Virus record (IMG/VR): IMGVR_UViG_3300030329_001833
Span: 1 to 23,838 of that record
DNA length: 23,838 bases
DNA from: a virus
Reading direction: 5' to 3' (one strand)
The notes under the pieces are model-generated. The model was not told the DNA's origin. It made no database searches and saw only the letters and a list, made by a program, of their open reading frames with translations. Each line of letters begins with the position of its first letter. Position 1 is the first letter of the stretch. The translations under genes and the position numbers were made by a program. Shown piece by piece: positions 5,297 through 16,768 of this stretch.

Positions 5297-7045
5297 CTAA
5301 ATTGCACTACTTTTAATTATGTTTCTATCCATACTTTGTGCAGTAGTTACATCATTACTAACTACAAAAGCTTTCACAGGTTTTTGAGTTTGTTCTGCTA
5401 TTGTTTGAGCAACTTGGTTTCCTGATGAAGCACCTACGACATTGAAAGAAGCAGGTTGCGGAGACGACACACTACCTGCACCTGCACTCATTCCTCCCCT
5501 ACTTCCTCCACCTTTACCTCCAAAAGAAGGAGTTGGAGTTGCAACTATTTTTTTAACAGTCGCTAAACCTGAAAGCATTATACCTGCTCCTGCTATAAGT
5601 TTTTGAGTACTCCCTGCAGGTTCCGGTATTGTTGTAGTATTTGCTAACACCTGTGTATATGCCAAATAAGAATTAATTATTGCTTGAGCTATTGCTGCAG
5701 CTTTTCCTGCTACTGAATTTTCTCCAAATAATTGAGCTACACTTCCAAGCGTGTTTGCTGTCAAAGCGACAGTTTGTTGGGCTATTATTTTATCTCTTTC
5801 TAATCCTGCTAGTTTAGATGCAATTATATCATCAGTTAATTGATTTTGAATTTGTAATTTTTGGTCTGCCACAGTTTGTGAAACAGTTATTTCAGCTTCT
5901 CCTAATTGTATAATACCACCTAATCCCTCTCTATTAATAGTCCCTACAGCTACAACTGCTTTTCTAGTTCTGTTTTCTGTTATTTCAGCAGATGCTTCTA
6001 ATGATTTATTTGTTGCTTCTGAAAATTTTTCATTTAAGGCATCAATTATAGTTTGATTTTTCTCTAATGCTTCGCCTTGATTTTCTAAAGCACTATCAAC
6101 CTGTAAACGTGCAAATTCTGCACTATTACCAAAACTTAAAACGGAATTTTTTATTGTGTCCCAGTAACCAGTCTGCTCTGTTAAAGCCTCATTTTGTAAT
6201 CTTATTTGTTCCGCTTCAGCTTCAGCAATTAATTTAGCAAATGCCTCTGCTTTTGCCCTAGCTTGTACCTGTTCAATATAAAGTTTTGTATTTTTGGTAA
6301 CTTTATCTAAGGCATCTGCTTGGTCTAAAGTAACACCTTCTAACTCAGGCATTATTTTTTGTAATTCTTTTAATGCTTCTTTTCTTACCCCTTCTTCTTT
6401 ATTTGTGTCTAAAACTATATCTCTATAAGTTTCTAAGCTTCTTGAAGAATTATTTGCTGCAATTTCACCATCTATTAGCCCTTTTCTAACTCTGTTTTGA
6501 GCTTCAGAAACTCCTAATAATGATTCTTTTACTTTATCCCAATTTTCAGCTAAATAACCAATAGCAATAACTGCAGCACCTATACCAGTTGCTAATAAAG
6601 CACCTTTAAGTCCTCTTAATCCCTTACTTAATCCTGTTACTGCTGTATAGGCATCCCTATATCTAGAAACCAACCCACCTGTTAATTGATTTAATGTTCC
6701 TGTTACTCCATAATTTCTAGACATTTCATCAACCAATCCTCCTGTAGCTTTTGATTGGCTTCTTATTATTTTGTTTGCTGTAGTTCTTTGGTTATTTAAG
6801 TCTTTTAAAGCTACTTTTTGTTCTCTTATAGCAGATTTTACTTTTACTATTTCTTCTCTGTATTTAGCTTGTCGGTTTAATGCTCTCGCAGGGGTTTGTG
6901 CTAATTGTCTTTCTAACTTTATTAACTCTTGTTCAAACTCAATAGTAATATCTTTTTGTTCGGCAATCGTTTTTTCAAGCCTTTCAAATTCCTTTTGTGC
7001 TTGTTTAGCATCTAATTTTAATTCAACATTTACTACCTTTCCCAT
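5297..7045 (-). CDS. Tail tape measure protein
   Basis: 582 residues. Residues 1-95 are a long charged coiled coil. A single strong membrane segment lies at about 148-166 (GALLATGIGAAVIAIGYLA), followed by further alpha-helical, Ala/Glu-rich sequence. A weakly hydrophobic region near 440-500 is followed by a Gly/Ser-rich stretch. This is the architecture of phage tape measures, which set tail length and help DNA cross the host membrane; the motif GLRGLKGALLATGIGA is typical. It is short for a tape measure, suggesting a short tail. It follows the tail tip genes and a 49-aa gene that it overlaps by 13 bases. Confidence 0.82.
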   Translation of the reverse strand: MGKVVNVELKLDAKQAQKEFERLEKTIAEQKDITIEFEQELIKLERQLAQTPARALNRQAKYREEIVKVKSAIREQKVALKDLNNQRTTANKIIRSQSKATGGLVDEMSRNYGVTGTLNQLTGGLVSRYRDAYTAVTGLSKGLRGLKGALLATGIGAAVIAIGYLAENWDKVKESLLGVSEAQNRVRKGLIDGEIAANNSSRSLETYRDIVLDTNKEEGVRKEALKELQKIMPELEGVTLDQADALDKVTKNTKLYIEQVQARAKAEAFAKLIAEAEAEQIRLQNEALTEQTGYWDTIKNSVLSFGNSAEFARLQVDSALENQGEALEKNQTIIDALNEKFSEATNKSLEASAEITENRTRKAVVAVGTINREGLGGIIQLGEAEITVSQTVADQKLQIQNQLTDDIIASKLAGLERDKIIAQQTVALTANTLGSVAQLFGENSVAGKAAAIAQAIINSYLAYTQVLANTTTIPEPAGSTQKLIAGAGIMLSGLATVKKIVATPTPSFGGKGGGSRGGMSAGAGSVSSPQPASFNVVGASSGNQVAQTIAEQTQKPVKAFVVSNDVTTAQSMDRNIIKSSAI

Positions 7046-12211: not shown

Positions 12212-12754
12212 TTATTTATCTTGCACTTTAAACATTTCTTTTTTATAAGTAAACTCCATAAATTCATCAACCTCTAATTGAAAATCATTAATCAATGTCT
12301 CTGGTAATTTTTTAAATGCCCTTTCAAAAGGTTTAGTAAAAAACATACTTGCTCTTAAACCCTTTTCCATTATACTTCTTGCAAATAAAAAGCCTATTGT
12401 CTTGTAATTCCCTTTGGCAAATCTTCCTTTTTTGTCTCTTAATCTAATATTTTTTGACTTTGCCCAACTTCCTATTGTTTGAGTAGGTGGCATTTTGTCT
12501 CTATAACTAAATGGTGATTTTTTACTTTCAGGATATGTTCTTTTACTTCCCTTTACTCCTTCATCTTGAAACCTTCCATAATCTTCCATTAAAAATTTAA
12601 GTGAGAACCAATTTCTTCCTGTTGATTCTTTATACGTTAAGCTTTTAGATAAATTTCCTGAATTATTTTTTTTCGTTAAATTTTCTCTAGCCTCTGCAAT
12701 AACTTTTTTTGCAAAAACTTCTAATGCTTTTTTTAAATGTTTAGCTTTTTTCAT
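12212..12754 (-). CDS. HK97 gp10-like tail completion / neck protein
   Basis: 180 residues, basic and helical at the N-terminus (KKALEVFAKKVIAEARENL), with GRFQDEGVKGSKR and a C-terminal helix ending FMEFTYKKEMFKVQDK. Length, charge pattern and motif match HK97 gp10-like proteins of Bacteroidota phages, which act at the head-tail interface or in tail completion. The start overlaps the previous stop by one base (TAATG), and the fibre gene follows 3 bases later. Confidence 0.65.
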   Translation of the reverse strand: MKKAKHLKKALEVFAKKVIAEARENLTKKNNSGNLSKSLTYKESTGRNWFSLKFLMEDYGRFQDEGVKGSKRTYPESKKSPFSYRDKMPPTQTIGSWAKSKNIRLRDKKGRFAKGNYKTIGFLFARSIMEKGLRASMFFTKPFERAFKKLPETLINDFQLEVDEFMEFTYKKEMFKVQDK

Positions 12755-13212
12755 TAATCACAAATTGTCATTTCGTTTTGCATTTCTACATCAAAAGTAG
12801 CAGTCCATCCTGCTAACTTATTTTCAAATCTATCCATAAAGGGTTCGCAAGTAACATCATCTACGACTTGATATAAACTAGAAAATAAATCTCCCCTTTG
12901 TAGTTTATTAATAATCCTAACTGCTGTTGCTAGTTGTGTATTTAAAACATCTTGCTCATCATCATTACCTCTAAATTTATCTGTCGTTTCTGAATTACTT
13001 ATATCAACAATACCCATAAATAAAATACTTATATTAAAAGTTAATGTGCTTGTTCCTACGCTACAATTATTAACCATAATATGAGATAAAGGAAAAATAT
13101 TTTGTTTATCTAAATCAATGTCATCAATATTACCAAAGGTTACAGTATTAACAAAAGGTTCTGCAATTAAGCTGTCTTTTAGTTGTTGAGTTATTTCGTA
13201 AAAACCTTTCAT
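12754..13212 (-). CDS. Tail terminator / completion-like protein
   Basis: 152 residues. The sequence (FYEITQQLKDSLIAEPFVNT, then LDKQNIFPLSHIMVNN, GNDDEQDVLNTQLATAVRII, and FENKLAGWTATFDVEMQNEM) matches a common Bacteroidota phage family located beside HK97 gp10-like proteins. By size and position it is a tail terminator or completion protein. Its ATG at 13212 shares an ATGA with the stop codon of the -1-frame extension of the previous gene, not with the zero-frame stop 77 bases upstream. This spacing is independent evidence that the -1-frame reading is used. Confidence 0.65.
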   Translation of the reverse strand: MKGFYEITQQLKDSLIAEPFVNTVTFGNIDDIDLDKQNIFPLSHIMVNNCSVGTSTLTFNISILFMGIVDISNSETTDKFRGNDDEQDVLNTQLATAVRIINKLQRGDLFSSLYQVVDDVTCEPFMDRFENKLAGWTATFDVEMQNEMTICD

Positions 13213-13463
13213 TTCCCTTTAATTAATTTTTTTTCTAATTCTATTTTTTCTTTTTCAAAAGTTAAGTATGTCAAACATTTATGTATTCCTAAAGCCGTAA
13301 CCGTATCGAATTTGGCAACATCTCCTTTAGAGAGTGCGTAAATTGATTGATAGAAACCCCATTTTCTTCCAAAATTTGCCGTTGAGGAATAGTCATTTCC
13401 TGCATCAACTCCTTCTGTAAATAATTCAGGGTAATTTGAAATAACTCCATCCCTAAATTGTAA
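13209..13463 (-). CDS. -1 frameshift extension of the tail assembly chaperone-like gene
   Basis: Reading in the -1 frame from the nine-T run gives 84 codons without a stop, ending with TGA at 13211-13209, which overlaps the next ATG as ATGA. The peptide is protein-like: VISNYPELFTEGVDAGNDYS, FGRKWGFYQSIYALSKGDVA, LGIHKCLTYLTFEKEKIELE. It resembles the C-terminal part of a chaperone-type family in Bacteroidota phages, including the FG-KWGFYQSIYAL core. The fusion with zero-frame residues 1-163 would be 247 residues. No start codon with convincing context lies in this frame, so it is probably made by frameshifting, as for lambda G/GT. The first 175 bases overlap the zero-frame coding sequence. 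Confidence 0.82.
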   Translation of the reverse strand, partial: LQFRDGVISNYPELFTEGVDAGNDYSSTANFGRKWGFYQSIYALSKGDVAKFDTVTALGIHKCLTYLTFEKEKIELEKKLIKGK

Positions 13464-13951
13464 AAAAAAACCAAGCTTCCAAAAACAACATCTAAAGGTG
13501 CTTTCTTCATTATATCAGCATATTTATCACCTTCATAATCTTCTATCTTATACCTATCCCCTGATTCCTCTATAATAGGTCTATATAAAACTGCTAGAGC
13601 TTTATGCATTTGTTCCCAATCAGATATTGTAGAATCTAAATCTATATATTCCCCAAAACTCATTTCATCTAAAACAGGAATAAATCCAAATTTTTTATTA
13701 TCTAAAATAAATGTTTTAACTAAAGGTATATCTTCAGAAAATAATTTATCTAAATCTTCTGCAATATCTTTTACATAAGAATACTTTATTTTAGCTACAT
13801 TTTTTAATTCTAGATTACAAAATATTTCTACTAGCTTATGTAATAAAAAAGCACTATTTTGATTTTCTTTAGTATTAAGCCTTTCATACTTTTGGTATTG
13901 TTCTAAGTTTATTTCTTGTAAACTTGTCGGAACTAAAATATCTACTTTCAT
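13289..13951 (-). CDS. Tail assembly chaperone-like protein, zero-frame product
   Basis: 220 residues from the ATG at 13951; a frame starting with TTG at 13963 is less likely. The N-terminal part (VPTSLQEINLEQYQKYERLN) is typical of phage proteins that precede tail completion genes in this group, and the segment SLVFFYNLGMELFQITLNYL also fits a known family. The zero frame goes on for 58 codons after the slip site and ends at 13289. Two products of one gene, 220 and 247 residues sharing 163, would parallel the G and GT chaperones that load the tape measure in lambda-like phages. Here the tape measure gene is farther away than in lambda. It is preceded by a promoter-like element and, farther up, a terminator. 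Confidence 0.72.
   Translation of the reverse strand: MKVDILVPTSLQEINLEQYQKYERLNTKENQNSAFLLHKLVEIFCNLELKNVAKIKYSYVKDIAEDLDKLFSEDIPLVKTFILDNKKFGFIPVLDEMSFGEYIDLDSTISDWEQMHKALAVLYRPIIEESGDRYKIEDYEGDKYADIMKKAPLDVVFGSLVFFYNLGMELFQITLNYLQKELMQEMTIPQRQILEENGVSINQFTHSLKEMLPNSIRLRL
13462..13470 (-). other. Slippery nine-T run, probable -1 frameshift site
   Basis: Minus-strand nine T inside the zero-frame codons GTT TTT TTT TAC. It contains the heptamer T TTT TTT with the correct phase for a -1 slip, after which TTA is read. Seven bases later AGGG can pair with CCCT across a 19-base loop, a weak candidate stimulator. Polymerase slippage on the T run is an alternative route to the same frame. Confidence 0.75.
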
Positions 13952-13957
13952 ATATAT

Positions 13958-13986
13958 ATACAATAATTAAATTAAAGATTTGTATA
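13958..13986 (-). promoter_or_regulatory. Promoter-like module ahead of the tail operon
   Basis: A divergent copy (TATACAAAT) with the same 13-base distance to ATTGTAT, which runs into a TA repeat and the ATG at 13951. It lies just after a terminator-like hairpin, which supports a new transcript beginning here. The upstream half matches the consensus at six of nine positions only. Confidence 0.4.
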
Positions 13987-14548: not shown

Positions 14549-15718
14549 TTAATAAATATGATATTCCCCTCTATTTGGGTTCTCTAAAATTGAACTTAAA
14601 ATATATCTTGCAGCATCTATGGCGTGGTCTCCACTTGTAGGATTTGGCTTTTGTAAAGTGTTGCCTTGTTTATCTTCTAGCCATATATAGCCTCCTAGTT
14701 CTTTTATTAGGTTCTTGCTTCTTCTTGTTACATATATCTTGTTTTGGTTAATTAGATTAATTCCATAAACTATACTATCCCTACCTTTAGTAACTGGTAA
14801 AACCTTATGTCCGTATGTGTTAAGTTCTGCTATTGATTTAGGTTCTGCACTATCAGCATAGATATAATCATCAATATCATTGTTCTTTAAAAAATTACTA
14901 ATGTCTCTGTTTAGCATTTGTTTTCTATAAAGTATTTCATCAAAAACGTAAGCATCATCCCATTTATATAAAGCTATTAAAGATGAACTGTCTATACTAT
15001 ATCCAAAATCCATTCCATAACCAAGCAACCTTGCCTGTGTTGGTACTTGTTCTATCTCTTGCCAATCAGGAATACATACCCCCTCTAAACTACCTACTTC
15101 GCCAAGCCCATATACTTTCCACCAATTTCTCCAATAAGTTGAATCTTCACCCTTGTCTCTAGCTGATTCAATTTGTTTTATAATAGCCTTATTTAAAGCT
15201 TCATTGTCTTTATAGGTTAATTTAACAAAAGAAGCATCAGGCGTTCCTATTAATTCCTTATGAACCCAAAAGGTGCTTGTAGGGTTATAATCTAAATAGA
15301 TAAATTTATTTGTTCTTACTGATAATTGTTGGTATGATTCAAAGCTTATATTATTTGCTTCGTTTATAAATAAAATATCGCGTCTTGCCCCTCGGAGTTT
15401 GTCAGGTTGGTCAACTGAAAAAAATTCAATGTAACTTCCATTTGTAAAAGTATATTTAGAGTTTGATAAATTAAAAGATTGTGGAAAATAATTATTAGTC
15501 CATTCCATAATTTTGATAAAATCTTTTATTGCACCTCTTTTTAAATGAGGTATTGATTCTGATACTATACTTATTTCGCTTTTAGGATTTTGAACTGCGT
15601 GATTAATTAAAAGAGGAATAATACTAAATGTTTTAGAGGAAGAAGTTCCCCCTTGTACTATTCTTATTCTAGTCGTTAACTTCAGAATTTTCTTCTGTGC
15701 TGTCGTCTTCTGGAACAT
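14549..15718 (-). CDS. terL: Terminase large subunit
   Basis: 389 residues; the DNA packaging motor that pumps DNA through the portal and cuts it. The ATPase part has Walker A GGTSSSKT at residues 23-30 and Walker B DILFINEA at 114-121 with E120 as the likely catalytic glutamate. The RNase H-like nuclease has acidic residues in GYGMDFGYS (D237), YADSAE (D289) and GDHAIDAARY (D364, D368). All motifs are intact and in order. The start at 15718 overlaps the small subunit gene by 50 bases; a later start would come too close to Walker A. The length is slightly short for the family. Confidence 0.95.
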   Translation of the reverse strand: MFQKTTAQKKILKLTTRIRIVQGGTSSSKTFSIIPLLINHAVQNPKSEISIVSESIPHLKRGAIKDFIKIMEWTNNYFPQSFNLSNSKYTFTNGSYIEFFSVDQPDKLRGARRDILFINEANNISFESYQQLSVRTNKFIYLDYNPTSTFWVHKELIGTPDASFVKLTYKDNEALNKAIIKQIESARDKGEDSTYWRNWWKVYGLGEVGSLEGVCIPDWQEIEQVPTQARLLGYGMDFGYSIDSSSLIALYKWDDAYVFDEILYRKQMLNRDISNFLKNNDIDDYIYADSAEPKSIAELNTYGHKVLPVTKGRDSIVYGINLINQNKIYVTRRSKNLIKELGGYIWLEDKQGNTLQKPNPTSGDHAIDAARYILSSILENPNRGEYHIY

Positions 15719-16052
15719 TTAAATCAATTTCTTTAAATATAGGTCTTTCTTGGAAATTCATATCTTGCTCTATACGTTCTACATACCCTCTTTTTTTCCC
15801 TTTTGTTTTTAAATGAAAAATAATTGCAGTAGGGTTTTGTTCCTCTATTAATTTAAAGAGTTTACTTTCTGTAAAATCTAAAGCAACATTATTTATTTCA
15901 TCTACTTTCTTTTTAAAATCTTCATCTTCTTTTAACCAATCATAAAAAGTAGTTCTACCAATTCCAACTTGCCTACAAGCAGTTGTTACTATTCCTAGAT
16001 TTTTTTCTAAAGCTTCTAATATTGCTTTTTTATGCTGTTCGGTTTTGTTCAT
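15669..16052 (-). CDS. terS: Terminase small subunit
   Basis: 127 residues. An N-terminal helix-turn-helix (ACRQVGIGRTTFYDWLKEDE, residues about 25-44) and a central helical region (FTESKLFKLIEEQNPTAIIF) followed by HLKTKGKKRGY match the phBC6A51-like small terminase family. The C-terminus is acidic. Small terminases recognise the packaging site and regulate the large subunit, whose gene follows with a 50-base overlap. The ATG at 16052 shares one base with the stop of the glycosyltransferase gene (TAATG). Confidence 0.85.
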   Translation of the reverse strand: MNKTEQHKKAILEALEKNLGIVTTACRQVGIGRTTFYDWLKEDEDFKKKVDEINNVALDFTESKLFKLIEEQNPTAIIFHLKTKGKKRGYVERIEQDMNFQERPIFKEIDLNVPEDDSTEENSEVND

Positions 16053-16768
16053 TATAAATTTAATTTTATAGTAAATTCATTTGCTTTTCTTTTCACATTT
16101 GAAATCATTGAAGGATATAATTTTATTAATTTTTTAATTACATTTTTTTCCATTTCTATTGTTCTATAGTCTTTACACCCTCCATCTTTTCCCCAATGGT
16201 CATTTTCCCAATGTAAATATCTTATTGCTAAAATTCCTCCTTTTTCTTTTATATGTCGTAAACATATTTCATAATCTTCTTTAACAGGAAAATCTTCATT
16301 AAAATAATATTCTCCATCATTTATAATTCCCATTAAAGATGCTGTTACATAGCTTCTTGTTAAAAAAGGTTTATATGGATATGTACCTCTTGGTGAGCTT
16401 TCGGTCCTTGTTCCCCATATCTTATAATTCATTTGTTGGCAAACATCAAAATATTTTAAAAATTCTTCTATCCAAAATTCTTCTTCTCTTATTTCTATTT
16501 TTTTAGTATTTCTTTTATCTAAATAATTATATCCAACATTTTTAGCATCATCATCTAGCATTACAACCCATTTTTCATCTGAATTTTTTAAAATCCAATT
16601 TCTAGTTTTTGTTATTCCTTTTATTTCTTTAGGCACACAAATTATATTTTTAATTAACCCTTTATATTGGTGGTATTCACTATCAGGAATAAAAAAAGTA
16701 CAATTAGGTAATATTTTATTTGTACTTGTAAGCCCTGCTCTTCCTTTACTCGGTACTGCGATTAACAT
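16052..16768 (-). CDS. TET-associated-type (TAGT/GREB1-like) glycosyltransferase
   Basis: 238 residues with a GT-A glycosyltransferase pattern: AVPSKGRAG at the N-terminus, GITKTRNWIL (51-60), VVMLDDDA with the metal-binding acidic cluster at 72-74, and VKEDYEICLRH (162-171), where an acidic pair may hold the base, followed by HWENDHWG. The GI-TR-WIL and VVMLDDD sequence is typical of TET-associated glycosyltransferases, which Iyer and colleagues linked to glycosylated, hydroxymethylated bases in phage DNA. A GT-A enzyme acting on protein or cell surface cannot be excluded. It overlaps a ParB-like gene by 23 bases and is followed at once by the terminase genes. Confidence 0.7.
   Translation of the reverse strand: MLIAVPSKGRAGLTSTNKILPNCTFFIPDSEYHQYKGLIKNIICVPKEIKGITKTRNWILKNSDEKWVVMLDDDAKNVGYNYLDKRNTKKIEIREEEFWIEEFLKYFDVCQQMNYKIWGTRTESSPRGTYPYKPFLTRSYVTASLMGIINDGEYYFNEDFPVKEDYEICLRHIKEKGGILAIRYLHWENDHWGKDGGCKDYRTIEMEKNVIKKLIKLYPSMISNVKRKANEFTIKLNL

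Follow-up and report, generated by a model that had tools for sequence, protein, structure and literature searches.

Does a run of nine T's in a late gene of a marine-type phage mark the point where one gene yields two proteins, and do both of the reading frames that stay open beyond it encode protein? The question is raised by a gene on the minus strand of IMG/VR record IMGVR_UViG_3300030329_001833, analysed here over positions 1 to 23,838 (the window, 23,838 nt in all). The start codon kept among its relatives is the ATG at 13951, the mechanical ORF start being the TTG at 13963, and the N-terminal domain encoded from there (13471–13951; MKVDIL...GSL) is common to both predicted products. The T9 run follows at 13470–13462 and is read in the zero frame as AGC TTG GTT TTT TTT TAC AAT TTA GGG (SLVFFYNLG), with T_TTT_TTT in phase. 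Past the run the zero frame stays open for 57 codons (TAC plus 56 codons; YNLGMELFQITLNYLQKEL...SIRLRL; 13289–13462) up to a stop at 13291–13289. The −1 frame (13209–13463) comprises 84 codons counted from the TTA at 13463; its peptide, LQFRDGVISNYPELF...FGRKWGFYQSIYALSKGD...LIKGK, begins with LQFRDGV and ends at the TGA at 13211–13209, which overlaps the ATG (13212–13210) of the next gene (12754–13212; 152 aa; phrog_30964) in an ATGA. Both frames are open over a shared stretch of ∼170 nt. An earlier note had reported the in-phase run, the −1 frame with its ATGA end and the long zero frame, and neither its coordinates nor its counts are off by more than a codon (58 zero-frame codons claimed, 57 found).

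Relatives were collected from IMG/VR by scanning with the zero-frame protein, which returned 80 loci, and with a profile of the −1 extension, which matched at least 599 stretches, 80 of which were fetched. Genome contigs of GTDB added five loci, mostly from Bacteroidetes MAGs. The main set consists of 156 homology-selected loci from viral and MAG contigs in which the region is complete, and a second set of 73 loci was picked by the DNA pattern of the slip site only. Among annotated phages, convincing matches were confined to Nonlabens phages P12024L and P12024S, at ∼27% identity. One relative (L167) comes from a contig assigned to an Epsilonproteobacteria MAG, probably a phage contig that was misbinned.

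The run is T9 or T10, in phase, in all 156 relatives as well as in Nonlabens P12024L. Its commonest form is T9 followed by TAC/TAT or TGG; one clade carries TTG TTT TTT TTT TAC and another CTT/GTT TTT TTT TTC TAC. Sense-strand runs of at least nine T's occur 156 times at the slip site versus 15 times elsewhere in 1.157 Mb, a roughly ten-fold concentration. When IMG/VR was scanned for DNA patterns encoding VFFY.L..N(D/E), the T9 form was matched at least 120 times, and variants in which either Phe codon is TTC or the third base of the Val codon is not T were never matched. TTC at the second Phe would alter neither protein, the −1 codon changing from TTA to its synonym CTA, and would retain T_TTT_TTC. 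Since these synonymous escapes are without a match although TTC accounts for 23% of the upstream Phe codons, the unbroken run is, judging from codon choice, under selection. RNA structure above that of shuffled sequences was found neither upstream nor downstream of the run, no hairpin abuts it upstream (mean z +0.38), downstream structure is not consistent among the relatives, and no Shine-Dalgarno-like element was found near the slip site. In the absence of a hairpin and of consistent downstream structure, the T run on its own seems to constitute the slip signal. Some relatives (L092, L094 and L100–L103, among others) carry, 12 nt past the run, another heptamer that looks slippery, T_TTA_AAC.

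The −1 frame is mostly 81–92 codons long and, with few exceptions, runs up to the next gene. In 23 of the 156 loci it is closed by a stop 2 nt ahead of the run, and in those loci the frame can therefore be entered at the run only. The core FG.KWGWYQSIY...GD...F..VT and a K/E-rich end are conserved, in part down to Nonlabens, and eight positions (F-W-G-Y-S-K-K-E) are invariant in the alignment of relatives. By this comparison the −1 frame is a real, strongly conserved protein, and it lacks a start codon from which it could be translated separately. An alternative without a frameshift would be a pair of ordinary overlapping genes with internal initiation of the second, and Nonlabens P12024L gp41 is indeed annotated in this way; gp41, however, covers no more than the final portion of the extension, and the first ATG of the extension lies at codon 55 or later, or is absent, in 152 of the 156 loci. 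On this distribution internal initiation of the extension was rejected, and the two-gene arrangement is hardly credible. The gp41 gene itself (L002 8522–8689), annotated as a separate gene of 55 aa, corresponds to the C-terminal part of the −1 frameshift extension of gp40. Searched alone against phage records, the extension had no match; against PHROG, the window's own extension retrieved nothing, and nine of 47 extension members weakly matched phrog_38404, a family of unknown function. In five loci (L201, L203, L212, L213 and L264) the core is diverged (KWGYFGIMYRL or KWGWYVSVRAL) and the zero-frame tails measure 24–38 codons, with T9 still kept.

The zero frame was open for at least 50 codons in all 41 representatives of the family, whereas 5.8 would be expected to have so long a zero frame after a reshuffling of synonymous codons that leaves the −1 protein and the initial 12 codons unchanged. 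Its tail measures 50–78 codons in all 156 homology-selected loci and 52–89 codons in 68 of the 73 pattern-selected ones (24–38 in the five distant members), and its stop usually falls within ∼65–90 nt of the next gene. A long tail is, as far as these sequences go, the rule within the clade and not universal. Chance is excluded as the source of the T run and of the open frames. Each substitution between related sequences, compared in disjoint pairs, was classed by what it does in the two frames; the upstream portion of the gene and the next gene served as single-frame controls. As neither the pairs nor the representatives are wholly independent of one another, the following figures indicate direction and strength of selection and not exact probabilities: in the first 12 tail codons, NN/SN was 0.16–0.18 versus 0.64–0.92 in two well-populated single-frame controls (first data set); the −1 synonymous rate within the overlap was 0.18–0.24 in most windows versus 0.32–0.56 in 19 control windows; and changes of the −1 protein that are silent in the zero frame were raised across the overlap. 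At codons 30–40 the −1 synonymous rate was control-like (0.394). At codons 40–60 NN/SN was 0.27–0.56, with one control window also reaching down to 0.34, and zero-synonymous change was again raised. These comparisons point to purifying selection in both frames beyond that of single-frame controls, clear over codons 0–12 and weaker further on. The dual coding suspected in the earlier note is thus borne out, most strongly at the start of the tail, and programmed slippage is supported by the persistence of the run, its phase and the −1 frame across ∼230 loci, with either the ribosome or RNA polymerase as the agent of the shift.

Structures of the zero-frame product were predicted with AlphaFold using 46 relatives. 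The N-terminal domain was predicted with confidence (pLDDT mostly 81–96), and a predicted helix spanning residues 153–184 crosses the slip site at residues 162–163. Beyond approximately residue 180 confidence drops below 60 and remains low for the rest of the tail; the extension is predicted to be helical, at lower confidence. With only a little less than an even chance, the far part of the tail may have no function as a peptide and may be kept open so that most ribosomes come near the next gene, for translational coupling or as a guard against loss of the transcript. The low confidence past residue 180, the control-like rate at codons 30–40, the variation in tail length from 24 to 89 codons within one family and the usual position of the zero-frame stop near the next gene are all compatible with this. 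The first 12 codons, however, are clearly constrained as protein and the low NN/SN at codons 40–60 speaks for some constraint there, subject to the one low control window; moreover, in lambda the unshifted ribosomes leave most of the T region untraversed.

Which machinery slips is a separate matter. Phage tail chaperone shifts are classically ribosomal (PMC5009743). Those known in lambda, P2 and HK97 are ribosomal, and this precedent favours the ribosome. The same two products would arise, however, if RNA polymerase slipped on T9/T10 and added one U to some transcripts, on which unshifted ribosomes would read the extension; transcripts with a deletion would put ribosomes into the third frame, where a stop follows within two codons. 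We regard this as a serious contender, somewhat short of even odds. The run is never shorter than nine nor longer than ten T's; TTC at the second Phe is missing even though the heptamer would be retained; and in the FFF clade the last Phe codon is always TTC, which keeps the run at T10 instead of T12. Slippage of bacterial RNA polymerase is reported to require at least seven T's, with T strongly preferred over A (PMC6260861), a minimum that T9/T10 exceeds. The search for structure and Shine-Dalgarno-like elements also bears on the choice, and counts against the ribosome, as no ribosomal stimulator was found. More efficient ribosomal frameshift sites often have a stimulatory RNA structure or a Shine-Dalgarno-like element. 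On the other hand, U_UUU_UUU explains the T's of the T9 class equally, UUC may slip less on ribosomes, and the hairpin that might abut the run upstream is lacking. The strictness of the run is accounted for by either demand, that of the ribosome for U_UUU_UUU or that of the polymerase for at least nine U's.

As to function, we consider it likely (probability of roughly 0.75) that the gene encodes the tail assembly chaperone of a tailed phage infecting Bacteroidota, made as two slip-site products with a shared N-terminal domain. Searches of curated families and solved structures gave no tail-chaperone match: Foldseek against the PDB returned nothing, Pfam and PDB sequence searches gave nothing reliable, and the N-terminal domain matches phrog_32199, which is of unknown function. 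Among predicted viral structures many uncharacterised phage proteins were matched, as was gp10 of Flavobacterium phage 6H (E 1e-5), and one annotated tail assembly chaperone was matched weakly (E 0.049). The gene lies directly downstream of the terminase large subunit gene (14549–15718, minus strand), its conserved upstream neighbour, which was present in all nine relative contigs tested; the tape measure gene (5297–7045, minus strand; phrog_1506, phrog_24676 and phrog_167) follows six genes further on. Because this operon position is unlike that in lambda and a curated family match is absent, the chaperone identity rests on the architecture of a shared N-terminal domain with an extension and on remote relatives in the Duneviridae, from which it is very probably correct. 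A two-product frameshifted gene of some other kind, for instance for a head-tail connector or another virion protein encoded beside the terminase, would suit the place of the gene directly after the terminase, at a distance from the tape measure gene, as well as the lack of chaperone family matches. We consider it improbable, as two products at a slip site are a hallmark of tail chaperones, two of the Duneviridae relatives are encoded shortly upstream of tape measure genes, and a fold match to a predicted chaperone, if a weak one, was obtained.

The late-gene order itself is unusual. On the minus strand of the window, between 93 and 15718, the terminase gene is followed by the chaperone-like gene, tail genes, the tape measure gene and a protease gene, and the block then ends with probable capsid and tube genes and, last, the portal gene. 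The 152-aa next gene possibly encodes a tail terminator, as judged by eye. Near the terminase, at 16052–16768, lies a gene for a TET-associated glycosyltransferase (PF20691); in Nonlabens P12024L a similarly annotated glucosyltransferase adjoins a 2OG-Fe(II) oxygenase, and the parallel suggests that the phage DNA is hypermodified.

In the tail chaperone reading, most translation would stay in the zero frame and give a ∼220-aa protein in which the N-terminal domain is followed by a long helix that spans the slip site and by ∼57 tail residues, mostly predicted to be disordered. A minority of translation would slip by −1 at U9 to give a ∼247-aa protein, the 84-residue helical extension of which may play the role of the lambda T domain. 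The two products would be nearly equal in length and differ at their C-termini. Ribosomal slippage on U_UUU_UUU would be the main mechanism, favoured by precedent, with RNA polymerase slippage nearly as likely. The zero-frame tail would be retained because its first 12–18 residues complete the helix; further on, the weaker selection may act on the sequence or merely on the openness of the frame. A stronger version, in which RNA polymerase sets the chaperone pair at the bare T9/T10 and the zero-frame product has a selected C-terminal tail of its own, the two proteins hence being alternative C-terminal forms and not a truncated and an extended one, appears doubtful at present.

The frameshift gene family is very widespread among phages that probably infect Bacteroidota, yet annotation misses its conserved 84-residue domain. 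The strict T9/T10 run offers a natural system in which ribosomal and polymerase slippage could be separated.

Of the known systems, lambda G/GT is the one to which the earlier note had likened the gene. The likeness in architecture stands: in both, a short and a longer protein share an N-terminal domain through a −1 shift, and the extension overlaps the next gene at its end. The same operon position does not, since the lambda chaperone genes lie between the major tail protein and tape measure genes, whereas the present gene follows the terminase. The slip heptamers differ as well (GGGAAAG in lambda, T_TTT_TTT here). P2 E/E+E' is similar in having a T-rich slip site and a −1 extension up to the next gene, but its heptamer is TTTTTTG as compared to the nine to ten T's of this family. 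The zero frame ends five codons past the slip in lambda and six in P2, as opposed to 57 here, and the length of the tail is therefore as unusual as had been supposed. Nonlabens P12024L gp40/gp41 shares the in-phase T9 and a homologous −1 extension with the KWGWY core, its zero-frame tail being only ∼25 codons long and the two parts annotated as separate hypothetical proteins.

The Duneviridae proteins, namely Flavobacterium 23T gp10, laban6-1 gp17 and Cellulophaga Ingeline gp05, have a homologous N-terminal domain, a similar overall length and a probable equivalent of the extension, but are encoded in one unbroken frame of 293–301 aa that needs no frameshift; in 23T and Ingeline a few genes separate this ORF from the tape measure gene downstream. 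The transframe profile matched the Duneviridae profile with a probability of 97.4 over 232 columns, with a slight edge only in score over the zero-frame profile (84.7 versus 79.4). The extension alone was not convincing against the family (P 0.029), and homology between the 152-aa next gene and the Duneviridae downstream gene was not detectable. As both profiles align across the junction, the Duneviridae were not accepted as proof of which frame is equivalent. Flavobacterium 6H, the Duneviridae member related to 23T, laban6-1 and Ingeline, was rejected as a frameshift relative, given that its −1 frame stops just after the heptamer and its relatives have one fused ORF. Compared with 23T, its gp10 (L168 10352–10927) is interrupted by a short stretch of scrambled sequence, a net 2 nt longer, which splits an otherwise single ORF of 293 aa and may be a real change or a sequencing error. 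With the unbroken relatives, the reason for retaining two products could be tested directly. In its long overlap under selection, the gene deviates from the textbook model of a short and a long form of the tail chaperone. As a tail-chaperone gene, the present one is not a new kind; it is a widespread unannotated variant of the known frameshift, set apart by a long overlap in which both frames are selected and by a bare run that is strictly T9 or T10.
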